DNA of 16,616 nucleotides from Jimgerdemannia flammicorona (Eukaryota; Mucoromycota; Endogonomycetes; Endogonales; Endogonaceae). The stretch is from assembly GCA_003990745.1 (NCBI GenBank), contig RBNI01003122.1:1-16616 (forward strand), read 5' to 3'. The notes under the pieces were generated by a model that did not search any database, was not told the DNA's origin, and saw only the letters and a program-made list of their open reading frames with translations. The first letter of the stretch is position 1; the number at the start of each line of letters is the position of its first letter. Position numbers and translations under genes: made by a program. Positions 1-16,616 of the stretch are shown here, in pieces.

Positions 1-8
1 TTTTTTTT
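1..8 (-). other. LINE 3' poly(A) tail (T run on + strand)
   Basis: The window opens with eight T residues. Read on the minus strand this is an A run directly downstream of the LINE 3' region, as expected for target-primed reverse transcription. The tail may continue beyond the window edge, so its full length and the target-site duplication cannot be seen. Confidence 0.6.
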
Positions 9-311
9 ATAGTTACTTAGACTCTGCCATTTATTACCAGTCTATTAATAAGGTTACAGTATTTCCTCCCCCTATCTGATCCCCATAGGAGAGCCTCTCC
101 CCACTCTCTCTCAGACAAAGACCACCTTCTCACCCACTACTTCAACCCTTCCCCTACTCTGCCTATAGATTTTCTCCACCAATCAATGCCTTTGACCACT
201 CTGCAATCCCCAACCAAGCCACCAGCCTGTCAAGATATCTTCCATAAGACTATGCCACTGTAGCAGCTGGACCCCCAAGCCCTGCCTCTTCCCATTCTCA
301 AAAACAAATAG
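9..311 (-). other. LINE 3' untranslated or degraded C-terminal region
   Basis: This is about 300 nt between the apparent ORF2 stop and the poly(A) tail. Parts of other minus frames read as plausible protein, so the true ORF2 end could lie further downstream, past a frameshift. No separate gene or RNA structure was recognised here. Confidence 0.45.
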
Positions 312-488
312 CTAGTGGCTGGCCAGCCCCACCCATATAGTCAGAGCCCAGCCTAATATGAGCCATTCCTTTCCCACCCCCCCCATCAGTCTATTCCTCA
401 AATCCTCCCATTGCCTCCACATACCACCTCTCTTGCATCCTATCCCCAAATGATCCCCAATAGTCTGCCAAAAGTCACTAAGTATCTT

Positions 489-569
489 GTACTCTCCTAG
501 CCAATGTTCAGATATCTGCACATATCCTCCTTCCTGTCCTACATTATAGCATTCCTCACAGTTAAAGCA
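489..569 (-). other. ORF2 C-terminal Cys/His zinc-binding motif, degenerate
   Basis: In the open segment 626-312 there is C-x2-C at 569-558 followed by His and then x4-Tyr about 20 residues later. LINE ORF2 proteins of this group often end in a C-x2-C...H-x4-C cluster. The last Cys appears changed to Tyr (TGY to TAY), again a G-to-A change. The zinc role is inferred from family layout. Confidence 0.5.
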
Positions 570-1399
570 ATCTCCCTTGATAAGATGATCTGAGCAATAG
601 TTGAGCATTACATTCCTCCTCAGCATGTACTACCAAGTCACCCAGTACTTTGGCAGCATCCATCTTCTCACCTCAGCACTCTAGGCCCAAATGCCATGTC
701 AGGCCCACTCTTTACCAATTCCAATATCTTGCTAACCACTAGGCCACAGATCCTGGTCTGGTCCCCTCTGGTATTCTATTCCATCACTAATGTCAAACTC
801 AAGTAAGGGAATACTGCCCAGCAGCACTTGATCTCATCTCCATATTACCAGGTCTCAATCTACCTCCCCTTCATTTTCCTGCTAACAAATTCCAATACAG
901 TGCACCCCCTCTGCCACCCTCCACCAGAAGCCTTTGTATTACAATTATTCAGTATTCTAAAGTCTAACCAAAGATAGGAGATCTCCAGTTGAGCCTCATA
1001 GTGAGGACCTCATCTCCTAGACCTTCTACAATAGGGGAACCCAACCTCTCCCTCTCAACTCCATGGCTCTCTTCAGCCACCATGCTCTTAAGCAGTATAG
1101 TCTCTTTAGAAAGTCAACCAGCCCAAGTCCTCAACTTGCCACCAGTAAGGACAAGACCTCCCAGCTGATCTGACTCCTTCTTCCAGCCCAGATCCAACCC
1201 TTGGCCAGCTTCATCAATCTCTTCACCACCCAGGCTGGGAAGTCCAGATGATAAGTCAGATATCATAACTTCAGCAGCCAGTAGATGTTCAAAATCGAGA
1301 CATACCCTGCCAGAGACAATTAGTGGCCCCCCCAACTCCACAGGGCCTCCCTCCAGATTCCAACCCACTACTCTCACCAAAGTCTGGGTAGAACTGACC

Positions 1400-2400
1400 C
1401 ATACATTGATAGATAGATACCCAAGTATCACACTGCCTCATCAGTAGGGATGATTGTTCCAATAACCTCCCCTTTCACCAGACTATTGCTTAACACCATT
1501 GTTTCACACTTATGTCAATTAAGCTTTGCCCCAGAGTTCTCCTCATACCACTCTACTGTCTCTTTGAGCTCCTCAATATCAGCAATTGATCCTAGTCTAA
1601 CCACTATATTATTCACAAAGGCCCCTACTTTTCACCCAATGTCAAAGATGGAGAGCCCTGCTATCTTCCACCTGATTCTATCCATTAAGGGTTCCAGGAA
1701 AAGGGTATACAGAATGGGGGACAGTGGGTCCCCCTGGAGCACCCCCCTATCTAGGGGAAATACTACTCCTTTATGTCCATTACACATGAGTGCAGCCCTA
1801 CTCCCTTTCAGTAGACTGATCATAGCTGACTGGAACTGGTGTGGAATCCCAGTTCTGTCCAATACTTTCACCAGCCAGACTCACCTCATCTGGTCATAAG
1901 CCTCTCTTAGTCCAAAAAGACCAGGCACTCATCCAAGCCATAAGCTTATACCTCTTCTATATCTCCATATACCCAGGCTGTACTATCCCTAATGAGCTGG
2001 TCTCCCACAAAGCTTCTCTGCTCAATGCCCAAGACTTGCTGGGCCATCTTTTGGAGCCTTGCAACCACCACCTTAGTAACCAACTTTCTGTCTATATCTA
2101 GCAGCATAATTGGTCTCCAGTTCTTCCAATCCTCTCGCCTTCCTTTGTTCTTATAAAGCAATATCACCAACCCCAGATCCTGTTTCCCCACCTATTTTCC
2201 CATCTGTAGAATAGAATCACACAGTACCATCATCTCACCCAGTACTCTTGAGATCCCAACCATCTTCTTCCAGAAGTCTCATGGTAGACCATCCTCTCTG
2301 GATGCTGTACTTGGTATTGTCACAGCAAGAATCTGGTAGATCTTCTCTTCTTGTACTGGCAGCACCAAGTCTTCCACCCCATCTACTCGTAGAGGGTACC
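1400..2400 (-). other. ORF2 reverse transcriptase domain, catalytic site destroyed
   Basis: The N-terminal RT motifs are clear in 2191-1946, where LLYKNKGRREDWKNWRPI is the classic LINE motif before the fingers. Upstream, around 2400-2200, is the EDGLP-type segment. Motif A (FLD followed by E-x-A-Y-D) lies around 1900 and is broken by a one-base shift and a stop. RGVLQGDPLSPILY, in the ORF whose reverse start is 1871, is motif B. The F/Y-A-D-D box at 1608-1619 reads FVNN, so both catalytic Asp codons became Asn and the preceding Ala became Val. A SGAKLN segment follows. YLGI-like sequence near 1425 begins the thumb. Confidence 0.85.
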
Positions 2401-3039
2401 AATCCTCTAATGTATGGCCAATAGCATCAGTATCCACCCCACCCTCCTTCTCACTCCATAAACCACTCTAATGCTCCTTTAAAGATCCAAGAATATTATA
2501 TATACCATGTACCAATATATCATCAGAGTCAAGCACCCTCTCCCACCTCTGCTGCACTCTTCTTGCCTGAAGGGCTCTTATGAGATACTTTGAGGGTCTC
2601 TCCCCTTCTTCCAAACCCTACCAATAGAGCCATGCTGCCAAGCTCTGCACCTTTGCCTCTTCCTCCTCCTGCAATATCTATTGTAGTTTGCCAACCTTCT
2701 TTTTCACTCTCAGTGATCTCCAATTCTCCTCTCTCTCTAATATCACCAGCCTCACCCAATCCTCCAAGAGTCTAGACAGTCTACTAGAAGTCCATCTCAC
2801 CCATTACCTCTTCTGTTTCCCAGCCTTCTTGCCAGCCTTACTCCAGTAGGTCCTGGCCATCTCTTTCATCCATATCCACTGAACACCAACTGAGGCACCT
2901 TCTTGTCTCCAATACTCTACTCTCAGTTGAATGTCCACAGCCCACTCATCTCACCAGATCTTATTATCTAATAAGGAGGAATTGAGGTGCTAATGTCCAG
3001 GCCCATCCCCACTCCTCCCAAATTGCCCCTGTTCTAAAA

Positions 3040-3727
3040 GCCCCCAATGATCCAACCAAGGACACCATTCTACCTCCAGTGACTTCTAAACATCCAAGCC
3101 CCAGCAGCTGGCCATCAGAATCCAATCAATTCTTGTCCCCAAGCCCTCTGTCCAATGCGTATATATCCTTCTATCCCCCCAGCACTCCCTACCCACATCC
3201 ACCAGAGCACTTAGCCTTTCCACTTCCTCCCATACTACCAGTCCTCCACTCTGACCCTCAGCTCTCCATCCTCCATCTGTTCTGTCCAATAGTACATCTT
3301 GGATCATATTGTAGTCTCCACTCAGCATATCCATCTCAGCCTCTGTGAGGATCCCACTCTCCTGAAGGCCCTTCACCCAATCCACCCACTCACTCTATAC
3401 AACAGGGCAGTAATAAGAGCCCACTATGACTGGCTCCCATCCTGAATATATTCACTCACCCTAGACCAATCTATCCCCCCAGCTCTGTATGTCCCTTATC
3501 TCCCCTCTGCCTTTCTGTACCAGAATCCCAACCTTGCCTTTCCAAACTGCTGCACCTCTCCATTCCTTTGTCTATTCCAGTCTATCCAAATCATCTTCAC
3601 ACCTGACATCCTGCAAGAGGAAGAGATCGGCCTCCAATCTCTTCAGCCAAGTAAAAATGTTCCTGCATCAATAAGTACCCCATAACTCATTCATATTCAA
3701 AGAAAAAATATTAGTTATACTATTCAT
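3040..3727 (-). other. ORF2 endonuclease (EEP/AP-like) domain
   Basis: This domain would cut the genomic target. The N-terminal stretch reads as a Trp-Leu helix leading into LFLLQDVRC, which matches the LQE-type metal-binding strand with Glu replaced by Asp. GDYN at 3308-3319 corresponds to the conserved GDFN motif. RIDWIL near 3116-3133 matches the usual RID-(Y/W)-(I/V) strand. A Leu-Asp-His at 3047-3055 sits where SDH is expected; its Asp-His catalytic pair is kept and in frame. At least two in-frame stops interrupt the domain. Confidence 0.8.
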
Positions 3728-3759
3728 AATGAAGTATGGTGTATTAATCCAGTCTATCC

Positions 3760-5645
3760 CTACTGCTCCATATTTATCTCTTCCTGTGCTATGTCCAGAT
3801 TATGTTCTGCAGTCACTACCTCCTCTTCAGCCTGCTGAGTCTCCAATCCTGCTAACAGCTTATTCATCTCCCCATCTGCCTTCTCCTCAAACTCCTCTTG
3901 ATACTCCAGGCAGGCCTCTTACCAGAGCTGCAATCTATGTCACTTGGCCCAACAGTATTTGGCCCTCTCACCAGCAACCCCTGCTAGCTCCACCTCCTGC
4001 TCCTTATCTACCTCATACCCTTCCTTCTCCAGATATACTACAAGAATCTCCACCTTCAATGCCAACTCCACACCATCCCCCTGCAGGACCTGTACCCAAT
4101 GCTCATTGCTCATTACTCTCAAGTCCATCTCTCCCAACTCTTCAGCCACCAGGTTATTTATTATTCTATACATCCAAAGTAGGTTTCCTACCTCCTTCTC
4201 TCCCAGGGTTATCAGTCTCCTGCTGTCCAACATTGTGGTGTCAGCCCCAGCACTCACAGCCTCATCCCACACCTCTGGGATATCCACCAGTTCCTCCTCT
4301 CCAATCGCCTCTACCTGTCCCCCATTTGCTACCTCTGGAACTCCAAATTGCACTCACTGGGCCCCCTTCATAGGCACATTCTCCCCCACCCTGCTCCAGG
4401 AAGCCAGACCTCTCCTGATAAGTAGAATAGAGGTAGGCAATCCCTCCCAGTCCTCTTCCCAGACCTTGAACATATCATCAGTATACAGGTTGCTGCTAGC
4501 TGCTTTCCTGTCCTCTTCTGATCCTTTCCCCACACTCCTACTATCCTCGCCAGCCCAGACACTTACATTGGTACTCTCTATTTCCACCATTCCACTTGCT
4601 GCCTTCTGTGGTTGACTTTTTATCTTAGCCAGTAGCTCCTTCTGATGTTTATGATCCTGAGCTTTTTTCCATTGTCCTCTGACCACTTGAATCTGCTTCC
4701 CATCTATCACCTCTAAGTATATTGACTTCTCAAAAGCCTTTCAAGCCTTTGCCTGCTACTCTACTGCTCTACTCAGTTCTTCTAGTGCCTTCAGCAAGTC
4801 CTCTTCCTCCTCCTCACTCCCCTTCACCCTCATTACCTTATACAAGATTGCCCCCCAGACTATTCCTGGAGGCCAGTCCCTTGCCTTTCTAGTAGCTTCT
4901 TTTCCTGCTAGCTGAATCCTCACATCCACATCTCCAGTCCTGAGTGAGGTCTCTTCCCAGACTCTAAACCTGATATCCACCACCTCTCCATACTCCACCA
5001 TGACCTCCTCGACTCTCCTTTTCATCTCCACCATAATCACCATGGGTACTCCTTTCACCAGTAGTTAGACCACTCTGGGGTCCCATTTTAGGTAGCATGC
5101 CATTGGAATACACACCTCCCCAACTATCAATCTAACCTTCAGTGCTTCCTCCAGAGGCTTGGCCTCCTCAAAACCCACCTTCACTCTCTCCAATCCCTTC
5201 AGGAACTTTACAGATACTGCTCCAGCCACCTGCTTAGTGATAAGCCCCAGCACTATTTTTGCCATCACTATCAGGCCCTAGAAGCACAATATTACTGCAA
5301 ATGCTGAGATCAATTTCTTGAGTAACAGAGCCACTGCCAGGCCTGTTATACCATCCACCAAATCTCCTTGCCTTCTAAGCCTCAGTCAATCAGCCACACC
5401 ATTAGCAGTCACATCTGGATTTTTTTCCAGATTGGCAGTCCCATCACTATCAGCTGTTATGTTCTCCCCAGCTACTACTCCCCTAGCTCCACTGCTCTCA
5501 CCACTAAGAGCTGCTCCCCCACAAACTGCTATCTTCTCCATCTCCTTGCCTTTCCTCAGCCAACCCTCCAACCCAGTCATCTGCTACCTCTCCTTCACCA
5601 TCTTCGCAAAGCTTGCCCTCTCAGACCCCTATCCTCTCCTGCTAC
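3760..5645 (-). pseudogene. LINE ORF1 (Gag-like RNA-binding protein), stop-ridden
   Basis: ORF1 of Tad-type LINEs normally encodes a nucleic-acid-binding partner of the retrotransposition particle. One reading frame holds from about 5640 to a TAG at 3760-3762 with no frameshift. It is broken only by stops, giving open pieces whose reverse starts are 5580, 5268, 5058, 4710 and 4353. The C-terminal part is rich in Glu, Leu and Gln (residues coded by 3920-3763) and looks like a coiled coil. The 5060-4760 piece, with a beta-strand-like VPMVIMV and a later VVDIRFRVW, could be an RRM-like fold, but this is weak. No CCHC knuckle was found. A hydrophobic stretch lies around 5345-5240. The exact start codon is not decided. 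Confidence 0.7.
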
Positions 5646-5868
5646 CTCCTCTCCCTCCTCATCCTCTTGCCAACAACCTCCTCATGCCTCCTCCCAGGCC
5701 AGGACCTCTCCCTACCTGCTGCTAGTTGAATATGCTAGGGCTGCCCTACCCAGTATATACCTCAGATTGCTTGCTATTTGCTATTGCCTTAGTACCTTTC
5801 TCCAATAAATAACTTGAAAGTATGTTGGAAAAGTGTGTATAATGTGAATGGTATCTGAGAAAGGACTG
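5646..5868. other. Junction between LINE 5' end and truncated 5' LTR
   Basis: About 220 bp joins the minus-strand LINE ORF1 to the recognisable part of the 5' LTR. The first 100 bp or so is probably LINE 5' UTR or the ORF1 N-terminus. The rest (about 5785-5868) is A/T-richer and does not align convincingly with the U3 part of the 3' LTR, although short matches such as CTTAGTAC occur. The breakpoint could not be placed. Confidence 0.45.
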
Positions 5869-6030
5869 TGTATAAATATCCTTGTTCTCTGCCTGAATAA
5901 AGCTCAGAATATTTTCTCTCAGAAATCCTTTGAGAATACTTGAACCTTTAAGTATCTCTTCAAGCTACTTTAGAACAACTAGAACTTCCATATTTAGCCA
6001 CTTCCTCTTAAAGAAACTAGAACCATTACA
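5869..6030 (+). repeat. 5' LTR of element 1, distal part only
   Basis: The 162 bp align without gaps to 11480-11641 with 11 differences, of which 10 are transitions. The copy ends in TTACA, the expected inverted complement of a TGTAA start. The remaining 290 bp or so of U3 present in the 3' LTR is not recognisable upstream, where the LINE lies. Confidence 0.85.
5871..5901 (+). promoter_or_regulatory. LTR core promoter TATA box and AATAAA signal (5' LTR)
   Basis: TATAAATAT starts at 5871 and AATAAA lies at 5896-5901. The TATA box would drive transcription of the retroelement. The AATAAA in the same LTR would serve polyadenylation when read in the 3' copy. The spacing of 25 bp is the same in the 3' LTR. 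Confidence 0.6.
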
Positions 6031-6031
6031 C

Positions 6032-6047
6032 TTGATAGCAGTAGTGT
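6032..6047 (+). other. Candidate primer binding site
   Basis: One or two bases after the 5' LTR the sequence reads TTGATAGCAGTAGTG. Allowing for G-to-A decay it resembles a TGGTAGC-type site complementary to a tRNA 3' end, possibly initiator Met. This is a weak match and rests mainly on position. Confidence 0.3.
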
Positions 6048-6120
6048 CATTATATCTTGCCTTATTAAGAAATCTCACACAAATTCAGAAACCAGTCACA
6101 ACTAGTTATATGAATCTGAA

Positions 6121-7040
6121 ATGAGCTGTGAAGAGTCAGTCTACTAGCCAGACCCCTCTGCTACAGAAGAAGCAAGAGGACAGCAACTTGGCATAGAGGA
6201 TATGATCAATACTATGGTTCACTAAATTCAAGAACTTCAAGCACAACTAGAACAGCAGAAAACACAAACAGTGGAAACATCACATCCTGCTATAGCACTA
6301 GTCAGTTTTAAGCCACTTAAGCCAGATATCTTCAACAGTCATTGAGGAGGACTATCTATAGATGCATGGACCTTCCAATTAGACCAATACTTCAAACTCA
6401 CAAGAATGGAAGATGATATGCAAGTCCAATTTGCCACCACACTTCTTTGAGGAAATGCAACCATCTGGTGGCACAATCATATCATGGTTATATCTGTATA
6501 CTCATATATATGAATCAGAGATTGAGAAGCTTTCAAGAGAGCCCTTCACAAGCAGTTCAAGCCTGCTAATGCCACTAAGCTAGCCAGGGACAAGCTAGTG
6601 AACATCAAGCAACTTAAGTCTGTACAAAGCTACAATACACAATTCTTGTCAATCCTACTTAAGCTACCAGCAGTATCTGAGGATAAAAAGATAGACCACT
6701 ATGTCTGAGGTCTGAAGGGAAACACATGAGTCAAAGTTGAGCTAGAAGAGCCCAAAACTCTTGATGAAGCCATAAGAATCACCAATAGATTTGATATTAT
6801 TACCTTTGGCAATCACTTCAAACCAGAATACCACAAAAACTACTTTGAGAACCACCACAGAAACCAACCAAGGGCAGTTGACCTGGCATCAATAGACTTA
6901 GACACTATGAACAAAAAGAACACCAAGCTCACCCCTGAAGAAAAGGACTATCTGAAGAAATCTGAAGCCTGTTTCTTCTGTTGCCAAATAGAACACATTG
7001 CAATCAAATATTCTAGGAAGACTAGCAAACCCTCAAGATC
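6121..7040 (+). other. Gag capsid-like region and CCHC zinc knuckle
   Basis: An N-terminal Gln-rich helix (about 6210-6290, ELQAQLEQQKTQT) precedes a capsid-like domain with features common to Ty3/gypsy Gag: DAWTFQLDQYFKL around 6361-6396, LL-stop-GNATIWW around 6442-6465, and a later KLARDKLVNIKQLKSVQSYN segment (6580-6639). The zinc knuckle at 6970-7011 reads C-x2-C-x4-H-x4-Tyr, so the final Cys is lost (TGY to TAT). Gag would coat and package the element RNA. Several in-frame TGA codons lie where Arg or Trp is expected. Confidence 0.8.
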
Positions 7041-7089
7041 AGTCACTGTGTTGTCCAAGAACACACCTGTCAATCCCACTACTAGTCAA

Positions 7090-7506
7090 CTTGAGCTTAA
7101 GGTCAAGAAGCTTCATCTGAAGGTCCAGGTCCCTCAATATCAAACAAAAGGAGCCATTGGTCTTGACCTACACTCAGTCAAACAAGTCACTATTCCAGCT
7201 CAGAGCTATACTCTGGTGCCTACTGGAATTGCAGTTCAATGCCCTGAAGAACATTATGCTAGAATTGCATCATGATTAGGACTCAGTGTCAAACATCATT
7301 TGGATATAGGCACTGGTATTATTGATCCAGACTTTCAAGGACAAGTTCAAGTTTTGCTTATTAACTAGAAGGATCAAGACTACACAGTTAAAAAAGGAGA
7401 CCAAGTCACACAAATGATTCTGGAAAAAGCCAGTCAACTCAAGATTACAGAAGTCTAAGAACTCCCTGAAACCAAATGAGATTAAAAGGATTTTGGCAGT
7501 ACTGAT
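7090..7506 (+). other. dUTPase domain (trimeric type) between NC and protease
   Basis: All five trimeric dUTPase motifs appear in order in the Gag-Pol frame. Motif I is AIGLDLHS (7153-7176). Motif II is AS-stop-LGLS (7267-7287), where PRSGLA is usual; Arg is now TGA. Motif III is GIIDPDFQG (7315-7341). Motif IV is GDQVTQMI (7396-7419). Motif V at 7474-7503 ends in DFGST, where R-G-x-x-G-F-G-S-T is usual, with stops at two positions. The length of about 135 residues fits the family. The enzyme would convert dUTP to dUMP and pyrophosphate, keeping uracil out of the cDNA. The position after nucleocapsid recalls the dUTPase-protease arrangement of betaretroviruses, a known parallel. The domain is inactive now because of stops and motif damage. 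Confidence 0.85.
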
Positions 7507-7509
7507 CAA

Positions 7510-7870
7510 GCAGTAAGTCTTAGTGAAAATCGAGCTCAAGCTATACTCATTTTCAAAGGCCTAGTCAAAGGAAAAGAAGTTCAAGTACTCATAGACAACA
7601 GAGCTGCAGGAAACTTCATCAATCAGAATCTCATTGAAAGCCTCAAGATCCTCACCAAGCCTATACCCAAGAACAATAGTATAGTTACTACAGATGGTAA
7701 TCTGCACCCCATTGAGTCAATTGCTGCCAAACTGCCCATCAAGATCCAGAAATATTGGGAATGAGTAGACTTCAAGATTGCACCACTAGGAGATCATGAC
7801 CTGATCTTAGGAAAATCCTAGCTTATAAAACACAACCCAGATATTGATTGATGTAAGAATGAAGTCACCT
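7510..7870 (+). other. Retropepsin-like aspartic protease, active site lost
   Basis: VQVLID at 7579-7596 leads into the active-site box, which reads Asp-Asn-Arg-Ala (7594-7605) instead of D-(S/T)-G-A. Both changes are G-to-A. The flap-side region and the C-terminal hydrophobic motif DLILGKS-stop-L (7798-7827) followed by HNPDID are clear. The domain would cleave the polyprotein into Gag and Pol units. It lies directly after the dUTPase. Confidence 0.82.
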
Positions 7871-8039
7871 TACTTCAAGATAGAGCCAACATTATAATCA
7901 AGACAAACAAGACTATGAGCAAGACCCAGATTGCAACACTGTCAGCTATACAGTACAAGAAAGCACTCAAGAAGGCAATACATGCCTTTATTGTAATAAT
8001 CCACCCCAAGAAACAAGACAAGAGACTATCAGTCAATGA

Positions 8040-8890
8040 AAGCATCAAGCTACTGCTAGAAGAATTCAAGGATGTCTTTCCAGACAAGCTACCTGGTCTA
8101 TCACCTATACAAGAAGTTGATTATGAAATTAAACTAACCCCAGGAGCTATACTACTCAAGAAACATATGTACTACATATCACCACTTGAAATTGAAGTAG
8201 TCAAGAAGAAACTAGAAGAACTACTTGCATGAGAAGCCATCCAGCCAAGCAAATCTCCTTATAGCTCATCAGTCTTATTCATCAAGAAGAAGGATGGTAC
8301 CCTGCAAATATATATAGACTATCATACACTCAACAAACTTACTGTCAAGAACTGCTATCTGCTACCCTTGATTGATCAAATCTTTGATGCTCTCAAGAAT
8401 GCCAAGTACTTCACCAAGTTAGACCTCATGTCAGGATACCACCAGATTCAAATCAAGCCAGAAGACATTCCCAAGACTGTGTTCATGACTCCCTTTGGAC
8501 TCTATGAATTCCTGGTCTTAGCATTTGGTCTCACCAATGCACCTGCCATATTCTAGACTCTGATGAATAAGATATTCAAGGACCAACTATTTATTTTCCT
8601 ATTAGTATATCTTTATGACATTCTGATCTTTAGTATAACTAAAGAAGAATACCTTAAATACATTTGAATAGTTCTGGAGATCCTGTAAAAACACAAGTTT
8701 TACACTAAGCTCAAGAAATGTGAATTTTTCAAATAATAAGTCAAATACCTTAGACACATTATCTCTGCACAAGGAATTCAAGTAGACCCATACAAGATAA
8801 AAGCAATTGAAGAATAGCCCATTCTGTCAAACCTCACAGAACTCCGATCCTTTCTTGGTCTAGCTGGCTATTACTACTACTTTATCAGAA
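8040..8890 (+). other. Reverse transcriptase domain of element 1
   Basis: The FKDVFPDKLPGLSP segment (8065-8106) is the standard N-terminal marker of Ty3/gypsy RT. The catalytic Asp of [11 protein letters not shown] is kept (8422-8424). [10 protein letters not shown] (8524-8553) is motif B-like. The Y-x-D-D box at 8608-8619 reads YLYD, so one catalytic Asp is lost. GIQVDPYKIKAIEE followed by a stop, then LRSFLGLAGYYYYFIRNFS (8776-8895), marks the end of RT and the connection. Stops lie at 8230, 8554 and several sites between 8660 and 8820. Confidence 0.9.
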
Positions 8891-8989
8891 ACTTCTCTGG
8901 TATTGCCAAGTCACTGACTAACCTCATGAGGAAGGCCCCACACTCAGACCACTATGTACCCTATACCTGGGATCTCTTCTGTCAACAAG

Positions 8990-9430
8990 TCTTTCAAGAA
9001 CTCAAGAACCACCTGACCTATACTCCAGTTCTGCATAATACAGATCAAGGCCTAAAATTCATGGTCACTACTGATGCATCAAATTTTACTATTGGAGCAG
9101 TCCTGTTACAAGATGATGGCAAAGGACATCGCCCCATTACTTTCAAGTCCTGCAAGCTAGCTCCAGCTGAACAAAACTAGCTACTTATAAGAAGGAACTA
9201 CTAGCAATAATATATGCACTAGACTACTGGTGATGCTATCTAGAAGGTGTTGAGTTTGATATCATTACTGATCATCAATCCCTCAAATATATCAACACCC
9301 AACCTACTCTGTCATATTTACAAGCCAAGTGGAGCCTCAAGCTTCAAACCTTTAATCCAACAATTAACTATAAGCCTGGCAAGACACTTATAGTACCAGA
9401 TGCCTTATCAAGACATCCAGACCTTGCCAC
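8990..9430 (+). other. RNase H domain of element 1, split by frameshift
   Basis: The TDAS strand carrying the first catalytic Asp is at 9070-9081. After the stop at 9178-9180 a one-base loss shifts the frame. The KKELLAIIYALDYW helix with the catalytic Glu (9195-9197) then follows in the next frame, with TDHQSLKYI near 9268-9294 for the second Asp. A conserved DALSRHPD-like end (9400-9423) closes the domain. It would remove the RNA strand from the RNA:DNA hybrid. Confidence 0.85.
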
Positions 9431-9589
9431 AATCATGCAAGTCACCTTGGTATCAGAATTCCTAGACCAAATCAGGCAAGCTTATAAAGAAGACACAGTT
9501 GCCACTAGAGTTTTCTTGAGTAAGCTCAAGGATACATATATGTTGAGAACAACCTGATCTATTATCAAGATCAAGTCTATCTATCTGAA

Positions 9590-10350
9590 AACATAAATCT
9601 ACACTATAAGGTTTTGCAAGAACATCATGACTCTCTTCTTGCCAGTTACCTGAGAATTGAGAAGACTGTCAAGAACATTCAATGCTGCTACTATTGGCCA
9701 AACATAGTTGGAAATTAAGAACTATATTATCAGCTATGATTTATGCCAGCACAATAAGTCTACCAACCAAATGTCTGTTAGTTTGCTATAACTACTGCCA
9801 ATTCCTACTAAGAAGTTCAAGCAAGTCACCATAGACTTTATAACTCAACTACCATGAACTCAATCTGGTGCTGATGCTATCATTGTATTTGTTAACTGCC
9901 TGACCAAGACTATGGTTACTAAACCAATCACTACCAATGCTACTACATCTAAGATTGCAAGAATCTTCTTCAAGTCCATCTTCTATCACTATGGTCTACC
10001 ATGAGTAATTGTTAGCAATCACAACCCCAAGTTCACCAGCCACTTCTGGCAAACTCTCTTCAAGACTCTGGGAACCCAATTGGCTATGTCTACTACCTTT
10101 CACCCATAAACTAATGGACAAACTGAGCATATGAATAGAACTCTAGAATAAATGCTTAGAAACTATGTTTCTTATAAGCAAAATAATTGGGACATCTACC
10201 TGACTTATGCAGAGTTTTTATACAATAATGCTGTCCAATCATCTACTGGTCTTTCTCCTTTCCAGTTACTCTATAGTCAAGATCCCAAGACCCCTGCAAG
10301 TCTATTCTCTTTTAAGAAAACCAGTCAAATACAGGTCTCAACTGCCAAGA
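9590..10350 (+). other. Integrase zinc-binding and catalytic core domains
   Basis: The HH part of the HHCC finger sits around 9600-9630, with YYWP at about 9690. The first Cys of the CC pair appears as Tyr (SYDLCQ near 9732-9749). In the DDE core, the first Asp is at 9834-9836, the second position at 10017-10019 reads Asn, and the Glu is at 10125-10127. The D2-E spacing of 35 intervening residues is exactly that of DD35E integrases. NGQTEHMNRTLE (10113-10148) and an intact stretch 10152-10403 with AEFLYNNAVQSSTGLSPF are typical of Ty3/gypsy integrase. Loss of D2 (GAY to AAT) would abolish integration. Confidence 0.9.
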
Positions 10351-10721
10351 ACCTTATAGACAAAATGGATGAACTACTCAAGATTGCTACCATGAACCTT
10401 TAGAAGGCTCAACAGTATCAAGTCAAGTATACTGACAAGAAATGCTGTGATGTCACTTACACTGTTGGAGATTAAGTCCTACTGTCTATCAAGAATCTCA
10501 AGATATAATCTCAAGTCAACTGCTCTTTGAACAAGTTCCAACTCAAGTATATTGGACCTTTTGAGATTACTGAACAAGTCTCTGCATCCTCTTACCATCT
10601 CAAGCTATCTGAAACTATAAGAGTACACCCAATCTTTTATATGTCACACCTCAAGACCTGGAACCAGTCACTACTCTACCCTGGTTGAATTCCTAAGCCT
10701 TCCACTTCTGTGATTATCAAA

Positions 10722-10880
10722 GACTATATCAAGTATGAAGTTGAGAAAATTCTTGACAAACAAATCTGCTACTGCCATCCTGAATACCTAGTCAAGTAGA
10801 TGGGTTATCCTGAATATGATACTATCTGGAAACCACTGGTCAACCTCAAGAACTCTTAAGATCTAGTTCAAGACTTCAAG
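10722..10880 (+). other. Chromodomain at the Pol C-terminus
   Basis: YEVEKILD (10734-10757) followed by EYLVK-stop-MGYPEYDTIW (10785-10829) and PLVNLKNS is the classic chromodomain pattern, with aromatic cage positions at the first Tyr, the stop (Trp expected) and the Trp. In chromoviruses this domain is known to guide integration to histone-marked chromatin. The tag codon within the domain is likely an original TGG. Confidence 0.85.
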
Positions 10881-11177
10881 ACAAAATACATTGCCCAATC
10901 CCTGTAGTGACTTCCTTGAATTGTCAACAACCTATGGCAATGACCAGTGCCTTATGCATTGAAAGTTTACTTTGGGACCCCAGAACCAGCAGAACATTTA
11001 ATAAACAAGAAGTCCACTGAAATGAAGCTACTAGCTAGGTTTGAACCTCTCCCAGTTGGTTAGTCTGATAATAGGCTCTCTGCCCTATATGAGGATGGCA
11101 AATCTCCACCAATGTGCCAATATAAGTTTGAGAAGTCTTGTGTTATCTAAGAACTCAACAAGGATATTAGTTCTTAA
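10881..11177 (+). other. Uncharacterised Pol C-terminal extension after the chromodomain
   Basis: The Pol frame continues for about 95 codons beyond the chromodomain to a TAA at 11175-11177, just before the purine tract. Stops are clustered at 10905-10950, with others at about 11061 and 11148. In between are protein-like open stretches such as YALKVYFGTPEPAEHLINKK and SALYEDGKSPPMCQYKFEKS. No family was recognised. The alternative is that the true stop is at 10905 and this is 3' untranslated sequence. Confidence 0.5.
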
Positions 11178-11188
11178 GAAGGGAGAGA
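11176..11188 (+). other. Polypurine tract of element 1
   Basis: An all-purine run, AAGAAGGGAGAGA, lies immediately upstream of the 3' LTR start. This is the expected plus-strand primer for LTR retrotransposons. Confidence 0.75.
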
Positions 11189-11641
11189 TATAACAATTTC
11201 ACAGTCATATTTAGTCTTAGTACATTTTCGTGTCTTTTAGTTAGTCTTTTCTTATCATTTCTTGAATATTCTACTATGTTCTGTCACCTTCTACTTACTT
11301 AGAAACCTTCTCTTGGTGCTCAGACACCACTAGAATATTCTTATTTTTTCTTGGTGTCAAGTATCTTGTCTTAGCTAGTTATGGAATCTTTTGGAACATT
11401 GTAGAATAGTATTAGTCAGTTTTGCTAAGAACTTATTTCTTGGCATTTCTCTTTCTTTTCAGATCTTTCTTTCAGATTATGTATAAATATTCTTATTCTC
11501 TATCTAAATAAAGCTCAGAATATTTTCTCCCAGAAATTCTTTGAGAATACTTGAACCTTTAAGTATCTCTTTGAGCTACTTTAGGACAACTAGAACTTCC
11601 AGATTTAGCCACTTCCTCTTAAAGAAACTAGAACCATTACA
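11189..11641 (+). repeat. 3' LTR of element 1
   Basis: The 453-bp repeat starts TATAAC (probably TGTAAC before a G-to-A change) right after the purine tract and ends TTACA. Its last 162 bp match the 5' LTR. It contains a TATAAATAT box at 11482 and AATAAA at 11507-11512. The first 290 bp or so is U3 and is T-rich. Confidence 0.85.
11482..11512 (+). promoter_or_regulatory. 3' LTR TATA box and AATAAA polyadenylation signal
   Basis: TATAAATAT begins at 11482 and AATAAA lies at 11507-11512, at the same offsets as in the 5' LTR. In this copy the AATAAA would end the retroelement transcript. Confidence 0.55.
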
Positions 11642-12881
11642 TTAGCCAAGATGCTTTCCCTTTTCCAATGCTTATAAGTCTGCAAACTATTGAGAACATC
11701 AAGAAATAGCAACTGAGCAACTTTATATTAAGTAGTTGATGATTTGTAAAACTTCTCACTGATTAGTCCTGATGTATAGAATATATATATAAAATAAATG
11801 ACTTTAAATATTACAATAGTAATGATATATAATCTTCTGTTTTATATATCTGTTTGTTCAATCATACTAATACTCCTTTGTCTACTCAATATTATCAAGC
11901 TTATTGTGAATAAAATAAGCATAGATACAAGATAGATCAGAGAATTAGTACTTTAAGAAAGAGAGTTTATTATTACCAAGTAAATTATTTCAAAGAAATA
12001 ATAAAAAGTGATAAGGTTTTATATTTTCTATCAAAATTCATACTATAAACTATAATAACTAAAGTTATTCAAAATAATTTATAATATTAAGTTAAGAAGA
12101 TAATTTAGATAAATATAATATAACTAGTTTTAGTAGTTTTTGAAATAATAATAACTGAACAATAGTTTAGAATATTCTATTAGTACTTTATTTTAAAAAT
12201 AAATATCTATTTAATTGAAAATATATTTAATTTAGATCTAACTTTATAAAATATTAAATAAATATTTAGATATTATAATATAATAAAATAAAAAATACTA
12301 TTAGTAAAAAGAAAAAAAATATTAGATTTTAACTTTTAAAAAAAAAATTATTAACATTATTTCATTTTTTTTTTTTTTTTTTTTATTTTTATAATTTTTT
12401 TTATTATTATTTTTTTTTTATTATTATTATTATAATTTTTCTTATTATTACTTTTATTTTATTTCTATTTATTAGATATTTATTTTTTAATTATCTCACT
12501 TTAGTAAAATATTTTAAAATCTTATTATATTTAAAAATAAGTTTTTGATAAGTATATATATTATTTATTTTAATAGACAGTAATTCTTATACTATATTAT
12601 TTTATTATTTATATATTATAATGGTTGATCTAAATTAGGAATATAAATTAGAGAAGTAGATATTTGATTTCAGTATCTAAATCTGATTCTCAAATATAAC
12701 ATAGTCTTATGAATAGCAGTTATTTCACAAATGTTAAAGTTTTGATAAATGTTAATACTTTTATAAATATTGAGATTTTATAAATATTAAATATTTAACA
12801 GATATTAAGGATTAATACTTATAAAAAGTGACTCACAGAAAACATAGTCATAACTTAGCTACCTTATAGCTAGCAAAGTTA
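11642..12881. other. AT-rich non-coding DNA
   Basis: No open frame, RNA gene or recognisable transposon domain was seen. The sequence becomes steadily more A/T-rich, with long runs of A, T and TTA repeats. It is probably heavily decayed repeat DNA or an AT-rich isochore between the two LTR elements. The last 130 bp or so may belong to the U3 of the element 2 LTR. Confidence 0.6.
12362..12480. repeat. Low-complexity poly-T / TTA tract
   Basis: A 20-base T run (12365-12384) is followed by T blocks and TTA/TAT repeats, with an A run just upstream (about 12337-12346). This is simple sequence and could come from slippage or an old poly(A)-tailed insertion, but no LINE coding sequence follows it. 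Confidence 0.7.
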
Positions 12882-12918
12882 TATAAATATCTCTAGTATC
12901 TAGAGTAAATAAACCTCA
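12882..12918 (+). promoter_or_regulatory. Probable LTR promoter core of element 2
   Basis: TATAAATAT at 12882-12890 is followed at 12908-12913 by AATAAA and then CCTCAGA. Element 1 LTRs have TATAAATAT, AATAAA about 25 bp later, then GCTCAGA. The same order and spacing, located about 300 bp upstream of the element 2 Gag start, suggests this is the 5' LTR of element 2. LTR ends were not determined. Confidence 0.5.
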
Positions 12919-13210
12919 GATCAAAATAGTTCAAAGTAAAGAGAAAGTAAGAGGACTAGTAAGTCTGTAGATAGATACGTATACTTCAAACTTACCCACT
13001 CTTATATTCTGAGAACTTTGCAGAGTCAAAGAAGATTAAGTTTTCAAAATACAGAAATCTAATATACTTATATAGTTATGCATTTACTATATTATAACTT
13101 AGTACTTATTAACTAGTAATTCAAGATAAATTTCTCACTTTTAAGCTGAACAATGAACAACTACTACCACCTAAATAACTATATAAATTGAACTAAGACA
13201 TCCAGACAAG

Positions 13211-13845
13211 ATGGATATAAGACTACCAGTATTTTATAGATATACTTCAGACAAATCAATCATTACTTTCATTGATGATTTTGAGTAATATACTATTATA
13301 AGAACCCTGACAGCAAGGCAGCAAATAGCCCTCATACTCTTCAGTCTCTGAGGTCTAGCAAGAGTAGTATTCATAGCTATAATCTATGTGGAAAATGATA
13401 ATAATGCTATACTGACAGTACAGAAGGCCTAGCTTAGAGTCATCTACTATATAGATAAGATTAAGCAAGCTCTGAAGAATTAGCTCAATATAATATATCA
13501 AGAAATGAGTAAGAATCTAAATATATTCTATACCAGAATTTAATATTAGATAATTCTCATAAATTAAAATACTGTTATTTAAGATCAAGTAGCCAAGGCA
13601 ATCTTTATAAAAAGAATGTACTCAGAAATAGCCATAACTATCTACTCATCACTAGTAGTTCTGGATCTGGCACAGAAGGTCACCTATGCTTAGCAATACT
13701 AGATAACCAGATATCCACAAGACTATATAATAGAAAAAGTTACTGAAGTTAGAATTGAAGTATCTAAGACAACTAGTATAATCTTTACCATAGTAATTAA
13801 TTGAAACATACCTCAACTAGAGCTATCAAACAGTAAAGAAACAGT
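13211..13845 (+). pseudogene. Gag capsid-like region of element 2
   Basis: The ATG at 13211 starts a frame reading RLPVFYRYTSDKSIITFIDDFE, followed by a stop. This is a typical Gag N-terminal capsid pattern (P-x-F-x-G-x-x-S / F-I-x-x-F-E). Later segments include IALILFSL-stop-GLARV (13326-13364), where LxGxA is usual, and a long helical region. More than ten stops interrupt it, mostly TAG or TAA. The protein would package the element RNA. Confidence 0.65.
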
Positions 13846-14130
13846 GATCTCATAGAGGAACTAGCCAAGAAGTTTGCTGAAATAACTGCCCACTTAGGAG
13901 ATATGGTAAAAGAAATCAGAAAAAGAGATCACTATCTAGTTCAGAAGGTTGCTGCTACTTTAGACAAGAAAAGAGGTATCTGCTATACTTGTGGAGAAGA
14001 AGGCTACTACTTATATGAATACATAAGTAAAACCAAGCACAAGATACAACTGAGCAATTCTACTCAGAATAGAGAACAGACTAATACTATTATGTTTAAA
14101 GAAATTAGAGAATCTGATGAAGAAGAATAG
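13846..14130 (+). pseudogene. Nucleocapsid-like region of element 2, degenerate zinc knuckle
   Basis: A helical segment (LIEELAKKFAEITAHLGDMV, from about 13849) leads to C-x2-C-x4-Tyr-x4-Tyr at 13981-14022. A CCHC knuckle is expected; the His and last Cys are both Tyr, consistent with CAC to TAC and TGC/TGT to TAY changes. An acidic tail ends at the stop at 14128-14130. Confidence 0.7.
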
Positions 14131-14540
14131 AAGGTCTATCTGACATAGACTACTAAAAAGAATATTTATAAGAAACTCTACAAGAGACCACCAGGAAGAT
14201 CCAAGAAGAATCCAGTAGAGAAATAGATGGAAACTACTACAGAAAGCCAAGCTGAAGAAATAGATCAAGATATAGAGCTTGAGCAGATAGTTCAAGATAT
14301 TATCCAAGGAACTACTCTAGTTTTAGCCAGTGAAGAGAAAAGAAAAGAAAGCTTTATAAAACCAAGATCTTCAAGTATGATATCTTTAAAGATCTCAGCT
14401 AATAAAAAGTCAATACAACCTTTGGCCAGCTGGTAGAAATCCCCACATTTAGACAGCAAATGAGATATGAACTTACTGAGACAACTAAGAAGCAAGGTTG
14501 GAAGATAACTGAGGCTAATAATGTTCAAGAAGACTTAGGA
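14131..14540 (+). pseudogene. Gag-Pol linker of element 2, charged
   Basis: Open pieces at 14227-14436 (frame 1) and from 14460 (frame 0) are rich in Glu, Lys and Gln, and show no recognised domain. This probably links nucleocapsid to protease. The change of frame lies between 14436 and 14460. Confidence 0.5.
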
Positions 14541-14960
14541 GAAGAAAGTGAAGATAATTGCAAAACCTCTGCCTATGTAATCTATCAAATTGAAGATAGA
14601 ATCTTTGAGGCCATTATTAATACTAAAGCAGGAGAATACCTCTTTAGTAAGAAAGCAGCAGACTGTCTAGGTTGGGAGATTGAAGAAGTAATCAAGTTAG
14701 TATTTATCACAAAAGATAAAATAAGAGCCACATCTCTGAAAAAGATCTGAGATATATATCCCAATTAAGTTTAGAGAAGTAACTATCTCAATAAATATCA
14801 TTATAACTAATACAACCAATTATGACATTCTTATCAACAACCAATAGCTTTATAAAGCCAGGGTAATAATTGATCTAAATGCCCAGAAGATATAAATTAT
14901 CTACTGAGGACAGAAGATATGAATTTCTATCAATATCAATAAAGAAGTACTCTTCAAAAT
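14541..14960 (+). pseudogene. Retropepsin-like protease of element 2, active site lost
   Basis: DRIFEAIINTKAGEYLFSKKA holds the active-site box at 14619-14630 as Asn-Thr-Lys-Ala instead of D-T-G-A. Both lost positions fit G-to-A changes. The C-terminal half has YDILINNQ-stop-LYKARVIIDL (about 14821-14880), matching the usual D-x-I-L-G-x-x-W-L pattern, with Trp as a stop. It would process the polyprotein. Confidence 0.78.
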
Positions 14961-15300
14961 AAAGGAAGAAGAAAGTAAGTAAGAAGAAATCTATATAGTG
15001 ACCACTTAGAAAAAGAAGAAGAAAGTTGGATAAATCAGTGAAGAGAACTAGTATAAGAGAATTATTGAAGGATATATACTATAAGGAGTCTACTCTTATA
15101 GAATCAAGATATATTATATAGATTATATCAATGATTACTACCAGTATACCAGCAGAATCAAGAAGATCTTCTATAAAAGAAGACAGAAGGCTCTTGATAA
15201 ATAAGCAAGAGAAGAGAAGGAGGAGGAAGAGAATAAAAAACCATTAGCTCTTCTATAAGACAGTAATGACAAAGAGAAGATCAAGGTCAAGATTTAGAAA
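14961..15300 (+). pseudogene. Lys/Glu-rich spacer between protease and dUTPase
   Basis: The stretch reads mostly as Lys-, Glu- and Tyr-rich peptide in frame 1, broken by several stops, with an acidic run near 15210-15235. No domain was recognised. It is a natural linker between protease and the dUTPase domain. Confidence 0.45.
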
Positions 15301-15705
15301 ATCTATCCTGATATAGTCCTATCAGAATATAAGTCAGAGAATGCAGCTTGAATAGATATTGCTATAGTAGAAGAAACTATACTTGAGCTCCAGATAACTA
15401 CTCTACTTATAACTGATCTAGAGATAACTATTTCAAAAGACTATATCAGAATTCTCAAGACAAGAAGCAGTTTAGCTAAAAGTGAGATTACTATCAAAGG
15501 AGAAGTTATTGATTCAGATTATATTAGAGAAATACTACTCATTGCTAGAAACTATAACTCTATGATTCCATTTCCAATCAAGAAGAAAAACTGACTAATA
15601 CAGATATTAATATTTCCAGTTCTTTAATCAAATATTATAGAAGTTAAGAAGTTAGAGGAAATAGAGAGAGAAAGAAAGGAATTTAGATCTATAGAAAGAG
15701 GAGTA
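15301..15705 (+). pseudogene. dUTPase domain (trimeric type) between protease and RT
   Basis: Five dUTPase motifs occur in order in frame 1. Motif I is AA-stop-IDIA (15343-15360), where A-G-x-D-x-x is usual. Motif II is TRSSLA (15460-15477), close to PRSGLA with Gly changed to Ser. Motif III is GEVIDSDYIREI (15499-15534), which keeps the substrate-stacking Tyr (15520-15522). Motif IV is KKN-stop-LIQILI (15583-15609), where G-D-R-x-A-Q-L is usual. Motif V is RERKEFRSI (15667-15693), where R-x-x-G-F-G-S-T is usual. The substitutions fit G-to-A or C-to-T. The domain would have hydrolysed dUTP. It is not interchangeable in position with that of element 1, which lies before protease. Confidence 0.78.
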
Positions 15706-15779
15706 TTCATTAGTACCAAGATTACTAAACTAGACCACAAGAAGAAGGAAACTACAAATAAATATAGCTATACTATTGG

Positions 15780-16602
15780 AAATAAATTCTGACTCAAGGA
15801 ACTCAAAAAGATATTTTACAAATTTGAGAATATTCTGGTCATAAATTTCAAGAATATCAAAGAAAAGACTCCACACTACTATCATAATATAAATATAGAG
15901 AATACTAAACCAATCTACTAAAAAGCAAGATCAATTCCACCAGTCTACCATAAATGGCTTAGAGAAGAAATTTAGTAGATAGAAGAAGCTGGTATCATTA
16001 AAGAAACCAGTAGTCCTTAGGCTTCACTAGTTGTACTGGCTCTGAAGAAAGAAAGCAAACTAGAAGAATTCACTCCAAGGCTCTATACTGATTACAGGAA
16101 GCTCAACCTGGCTACTAAGAAAGATTACTAACTACTACCCTTCATTAGTGATATCTTTATAACTCTGAGAGATAAAGTACAGTATTACAGCACTTTGGAT
16201 TTATATTCAAGATTCTATTAAATTGGCCTTATAGAAGCAGTAAGTGAGAAGTCAGTCTTCATTACTCTAGACAGAACTTATATCTATCTATAAATACTAT
16301 TTGGAATATGCAATATACCAGCAAGCTTCTACTATAATATGGAAAGATGTATGATGGTTTATATAGATAAAATTATTATTTATAGTAAAATAGCTGAAGA
16401 ATATCTGTAGTATATCTAGCAGATGATAGAGAAGCTAAGGAAGTATAGTCTATACATCAAGCCCAAGAAGTGTAAGTTTGTAAAAATCAAGATCTCCTAC
16501 CTTGATCATATTATCAATCAAGATAGAATATACACAAATCACTTTAAGATTTAAGCAGTAGTAGTATATTCAAGACCTACCACTATTACTGAAGTCCAAG
16601 CC
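15780..16602 (+). pseudogene. Reverse transcriptase of element 2, partial
   Basis: The KELKKIFYKFENIL segment precedes a typical RT N-terminus (IPPVYHKWLREEI, then EEAGIIKETSSP). TDYRKLNLATKKDY (16087-16128) and STLDLYSRFY (16189-16218) are RT motifs; the catalytic Asp is kept at 16198-16200. The Y-x-D-D box at 16360-16371 reads YIDK. About 10-15 residues expected before this box appear deleted. KPKKCKFVKIKISYLDHII (about 16459-16515) is the conserved region after the palm. The frame ends at EVQAF, where the T run starts. Confidence 0.82.
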
Positions 16603-16616
16603 TTTTTTTTTTTTTT
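16603..16616. repeat. Poly-T run interrupting RT of element 2
   Basis: Fourteen T residues follow the codons for EVQA. One or two T would belong to the expected Phe-Leu codons; the rest is extra. It may be the poly(A) tail of a minus-strand LINE inserted at this point, or an assembly-edge homopolymer. Confidence 0.45.

Follow-up and report, generated by a model that had tools for sequence, protein, structure and literature searches.

Known positions of dUTPase in LTR elements

dUTPase domains occupy several positions in the polyproteins of long terminal repeat (LTR) retrotransposons and retroviruses. Retroviral dUTPases lie before the protease (PR), between reverse transcriptase (RT) and integrase, or after integrase (PMC4531489, PMC2427051, PMC4299795). 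In three Gypsy families of Postia placenta the domain is amino-terminal, carboxyl-terminal or placed between PR and RT, and its independent acquisition was considered likely (Novikova et al. 2010, PMC2864245). The position between PR and RT is also described for the bdelloid elements Juno, Vesta and TelKA (PMC5408684), and fungal chromovirus dUTPases are mentioned in passing (PMC2774666). The window analysed here, contig RBNI01003122.1 of the Mucoromycota species Jimgerdemannia flammicorona (16,616 bp), contains two LTR elements with such a domain, element 1 and element 2. For element 2, an earlier note made from the sequence alone had read a second dUTPase at 15301-15705, after PR and directly before RT. 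Very probably, element 2 is a dead copy of a Ty3/Gypsy LTR retrotransposon present in high copy number, whose domains are arranged as gag-CCHC-PR-spacer-dUTPase-RT-RNase H-integrase, and the segment at about 15313-15693 is its dUTPase domain.

Among described systems, element 2 resembles PosPlaTy3-5 of P. placenta, likewise a Gypsy LTR element of a fungus in which the dUTPase stands between PR and RT; in its sister families the domain is amino- or carboxyl-terminal in Pol, comparable to its place before PR in element 1 (PMC2864245). Tmt1 of Tuber melanosporum is a reported dUTPase carrier, for whose PR-RT placement PMC5408684 cites Riccioni et al. 2008; the same source speaks of basidiomycetes, whereas PMC2864245 calls Tuber an ascomycete. 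Both fungal elements are likened to element 2 by description only. Juno, Vesta and TelKA share the arrangement in animal hosts (bdelloid rotifers), Juno with an extra zinc knuckle after the dUTPase, whereas the element-2 family has a Cys-rich stretch before it. In betaretroviruses and in element 1 the domain is part of the Gag-Pol product as in element 2, but precedes PR; in non-primate lentiviruses it lies within Pol as in element 2, but between RNase H and integrase (PMC4531489). Element 2 differs from both element 1 and the lentiviruses, as the earlier note had said. The rarity implied there finds no support, since the arrangement is already published for the P. placenta element and the three bdelloid elements. 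The position is not new, and element 2 is a real and correctly read further case of it. What it adds to the LTR retrotransposons with dUTPase between PR and RT is a copy-rich family with open copies and, together with element 1, a contrast of two dUTPase positions within one genome. The known picture is unchanged, because variable positions in one genome, with independent acquisition thought likely, had already been reported (PMC2864245).

The dUTPase domain of element 2

Frame 1 of 15301-15705 contains three stops, and profile searches were therefore done on stop-free pieces (coordinates refer to the plus strand unless stated otherwise). The piece 15352-15591 (80 residues) matches the dUTPase family PF00692 with E 1.3e-8 and 35.1 bits, above the family's cut-off of 22 and far beyond chance; the profile search of frame 1 suggested in the earlier note, done in this piecewise form, returned a dUTPase. 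No Pfam family scored above cut-off in the piece 15628-15789. The top phmmer match among PDB sequences is the dUTPase 1duc (E 0.0024), which we take to be that of equine infectious anaemia virus. Domain limits of about 15313-15693 are projected from the PF00692 match in residues 187-313 (E 2.1e-28) of the colinear genomic copy L052; in the genomic copies L050, L052, L070 and L071 this family scores 74.6-100.8 bits. The heavy decay of the window copy and its unmatched shorter piece might suggest an unrelated linker between PR and RT resembling dUTPase by chance, but the profile matches in the window and in open copies already refute this, and we give it practically no credence. A DCD-type dUTPase was rejected as well, PF22769 falling well below PF00692 in L052 (E 3.4e-8 vs 2.1e-28) and in L050 (E 9.7e-9 vs 4.6e-24).

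Motif names and usual forms are used here as generally known. Motif I (15337-15360) contains a stop, motif II (15460-15483) is kept, motif III (15499-15534) retains its Asp and Tyr, motif IV (15577-15606) contains a further stop, and motif V (15679-15696) has lost its glycines; the third in-frame stop lies between motifs IV and V. These positions agree within a few bases with the ordered motifs I-V noted earlier (15343-15693), where the retained Tyr of motif III had also been recognised. The window copy is dead and unable to make the enzyme, because motifs I and IV carry stops and the glycines of motif V are lost. The open genomic copies have five motifs in order, with motif IV lacking its usual Gly, and all five are recognisable by eye in the related protein P0001. 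The domain has the fold assignment of the trimeric-type dUTPases (PF00692). A structure model of P0001 built from a 20-row alignment reached a mean predicted local distance difference test score (pLDDT) of 70.5; a single-sequence fold (mean pLDDT 35.4) was discarded.

Position between protease and reverse transcriptase

Genomic copies of the family place the domain between PR and RT. L048 contains CCHC and PR and aligns to 13550-14904 of the window in three frames (tblastn). An unbroken frame of 335 residues in L052 joins a retropepsin C-terminus (PF08284, E 8.9e-5) to the dUTPase given above, and is colinear with 14758-15762 in one frame, with a single gap column and 66% identity. L050, which is the same genomic place as L069, carries dUTPase, RT and RNase H in an uninterrupted 700-residue frame that aligns to 15034-16608 with 65% identity (tblastn). 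L070 has the domains from PR to RNase H in one continuous frame of 888 residues, namely protease (67-156), dUTPase (311-437), RT (554-719) and RNase H (782-888). The order PR-dUTPase-RT is therefore no artefact of decay. The alignment with relatives from the same genome, which the earlier note had proposed as a check, bears out its placement of the domain in open copies, and nothing was found against the identity or position of the dUTPase. Among 120 related proteins listed, dUTPase and RT occur together in eight by precomputed Pfam annotation, three of which (P0001, P0002 and P0008) have a protease C-terminus upstream of the dUTPase.

Both element families lie on one contig, and an element-1 copy sits inside an element-2 copy elsewhere (contig C1920), as would suit the insertion of a piece of element-1 dUTPase into element 2, or a misassembly of the two. 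Identity between the dUTPases is only about 30%, however, and the same order recurs in related proteins of other origin and, as a single open frame, on contig C24. On account of the C24 frame such a chimera was rejected, and we consider it exceedingly improbable.

Decay and constraint

Of 3027 positions compared with L071, the window copy differs at 686: in the direction from L071 to the window copy, C>T accounts for 267 and G>A for 236, and the reverse changes T>C and A>G for 54 and 55, respectively. Across three compared copies, C-to-T and G-to-A changes make up the majority of differences. The stops and G-to-A changes that the earlier note held responsible for blurring the motifs are both present, but G-to-A alone is an incomplete description, C-to-T being equally common. 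Relative to L071, C>T changes peak before G (32/50) and A (149/292) and are rarest before T (31/149). GC content is 31.3% in the window copy vs 44.7-45.1% in the three compared copies, and CpG is absent from 13550-16604 despite 449 C and 508 G. Differences within LTR pairs are almost exclusively transitions, which stand to other differences at 17:1 in L071, 25:0 in L070 and 13:0 in L072, a copy of the element-1 family. The pattern is consistent with deamination of cytosines in both strands of repeats, for example by repeat-induced point mutation (RIP) or methylation-linked decay.

The open copies bear a sign of protein constraint. Of 37 copies examined, 33 have at least 130 aligned dUTPase codons, and nine of those are open. 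In these nine, the nonsynonymous fraction of single-change codons in the dUTPase is 0.382 (286/748) vs 0.631 expected if C>T and G>A changes fell at random and created no stops (0.61-0.62 with context weighting), a figure that carries no P value, comes from non-independent pairs and concerns copies chosen for their absence of stops. RT gives 0.408 in three open copies vs 0.618 expected.

These limits, together with the following observations, weigh against a functional dUTPase under constraint. Broken copies also fall below expectation, with 0.448 in both dUTPase and RT (24 copies each), and part of the constraint signal may for this reason be older than the last insertions, or due to the crude expectation. 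Motif IV of dUTPases usually starts with Gly-Asp, from which all nine open copies deviate, and the first Asp of motif III, presumably the catalytic one, is Asn in four of the nine. Furthermore, 112 of the 120 listed RT relatives, some of them fragments, lack dUTPase by precomputed Pfam, and the domain is clearly dispensable for Gypsy elements in general. The deviating motifs III and IV would suit a dUTPase fold that is kept without enzyme activity and serves the structure or folding of Pol, for which bovine immunodeficiency virus offers a precedent: its dUTPase-related gene is reported as critical for replication and the product as inactive (title of PMC4261571). Against this stand the full-length domain, motif V, which is intact in six of the nine open copies, the PF00692 scores of the genomic copies and the five recognisable motifs of P0001, and we regard such a purely structural role as unlikely.

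On the favoured reading, working copies would produce the dUTPase within Pol, and the element's own protease would probably free it. The enzyme, whose activity and trimer formation in open copies we infer from the family, would hydrolyse dUTP near the reverse transcriptase and so leave less uracil in new cDNA, a role suggested by known dUTPase biology (PMC4531489).

Other parts of element 2 and its family

Element 2 retains the 3' part of its 5' LTR at 12848-13097 (blastn with the 466 bp LTR of L071: LTR positions 220-466, 77.8%, E 3e-51); the 5' part of this LTR was undetected in the window with the same query. The C-terminal part of gag, with a decayed CCHC knuckle and in two frames, follows at 13550-14346 (tblastn of residues 2-267 of the L048 reading frame); the knuckle (PF00098) reaches E 7.9e-5 in L048 vs only E 0.3 in the window. 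PR, decayed and split over two frames, lies at 14580-14853, as projected from L048 residues 344-433 (PF13975, E 7e-12). A Pfam profile search of the window piece 14406-14747 alone found no protease family, and PR is identified here because the region aligns to L048, which scores as a retropepsin, at 14337-14756 (frame 3) and 14758-14904 (frame 1; tblastn). RT, decayed and cut by the contig end, occupies 16021-16608 within the alignment to the L050 frame and includes a weak PF00078 match at 16420-16551 (E 0.022, below cut-off). The remainder of element 2 is not visible from the window alone because the contig ends inside RT at 16616.

The spacer between PR and dUTPase (15052-15204) has lost a Cys-rich stretch of other copies. 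This stretch reads C-x7-C-x6-C-x2-C in L052 (residues 112-130), occurs also in P0001, and is spaced differently in P0002 and P0008. The first Cys is conserved in 34 of 36 aligned copies and the others in 17, 29 and 18 of 37, with a spacer mean of 0.75; conservation among decayed copies is mixed. The stretch may bind zinc.

As seen elsewhere in the genome, Ty3/Gypsy elements of this family are 6.7 kb long and have LTRs of about 470 bp. L071 has paired 466 bp LTRs (96.1% identical) and spans 6710 bp, L070 has paired 472 bp LTRs (94.7% identical) and spans 6721 bp, and the ends of both are readable as TG...CA with 4 bp target duplications. Downstream of RNase H, L069, L070 and L071 match the C-terminal part of P0010, a protein with integrase, and genomic copies have the Ty3/Gypsy Pol order PR-RT-RNase H-integrase, the window itself ending in RT. 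Two C-terminal frames of L071 scanned for a chromodomain gave no Pfam match, the copies being broken at that place.

Copy counts within the genome are minimum values, and a first-look candidate does not amount to a confirmed copy. The protein search with an element-2 query yielded 5383 such candidates; 150 were scored, and every one of these, the window among them, matched. In the DNA search, 40 of 746 candidates were scored and are 83-100% identical, again including the window; the dUTPase-profile search, which also catches element 1, gave 5391 candidates (150 scored). Stops in the best dUTPase-profile matches appear to be mostly TGA, the inspected frames among these matches being element-1-like, whereas TAA and TAG seem commoner in the element-2-query matches.

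Element 1 and the two dUTPases

Element 1 (5864-11641) is bordered by LTR fragments at 5864-6030 and 11475-11641 and contains gag, dUTPase (about 7084-7524), PR (7486-7761; PF08284, E 5.9e-4, just below cut-off), RT (8233-8553), RNase H and an integrase zinc-binding domain. Its dUTPase, matched by PF00692 in the window piece 6730-7272 (E 1.3e-8), precedes PR, an order found in one frame in the copy L012. Element 2 is separate from it, and its dUTPase is indeed a second one in another LTR element, as first noted.

The two dUTPase kinds separate in a 34-row tree. A single origin of both is not rejected in this sequence comparison (joint clade, p value of the approximately unbiased test, p-AU, 0.086), and the bootstrap values had not stabilised. 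The tree group labelled PR-dUT-RT comprises 12 rows, the protease C-terminus being seen among related proteins only in P0001, P0002 and P0008; its members P0121 and P0122 have no RT by precomputed Pfam. P0123 (179 residues, no RT listed) nests inside this group (group as one clade, p-AU 0.18), and therefore a single capture for the group is not established. We propose tentatively, at rather less than even chances, that the cassette of PR, Cys-rich spacer, dUTPase and RT represents a single Gypsy lineage, old and widespread, that acquired its dUTPase in a capture of its own, apart from the one in the element-1 family; this one fungal genome would hence hold two independent, highly multiplied captures at two Pol positions.

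Of gene families that point to a fungal host, Zn2Cys6 matched 51 places in the genome and KDZ one decayed place, and HET matched none, with no match in a control genome either. A host cellular dUTPase was not recognised among 150 matches to the cellular-type dUTPase P0178, four of which were examined and are the same places as matches of the dUTPase-profile search. The P0178 matches C2375:7391-7816, C261:14991-15416 and C1880:7167-7592 align over a longer range than the best-scoring ones and at lower identity (42-45%), contain 2, 3 and 1 TGA stops, respectively, and possibly belong to a third dUTPase-bearing family. On contig C1920, the element-1 family copy L072 has paired LTRs at 483-887 and 6110-6514 and is inserted in the protease-to-spacer part of an element-2 copy. 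The first part of the window (1-6000) has a strong GC skew and houses remnants of a third RT on the minus strand (1635-2191; PF00078, E 3.1e-5 and 6.6e-4, below cut-off).
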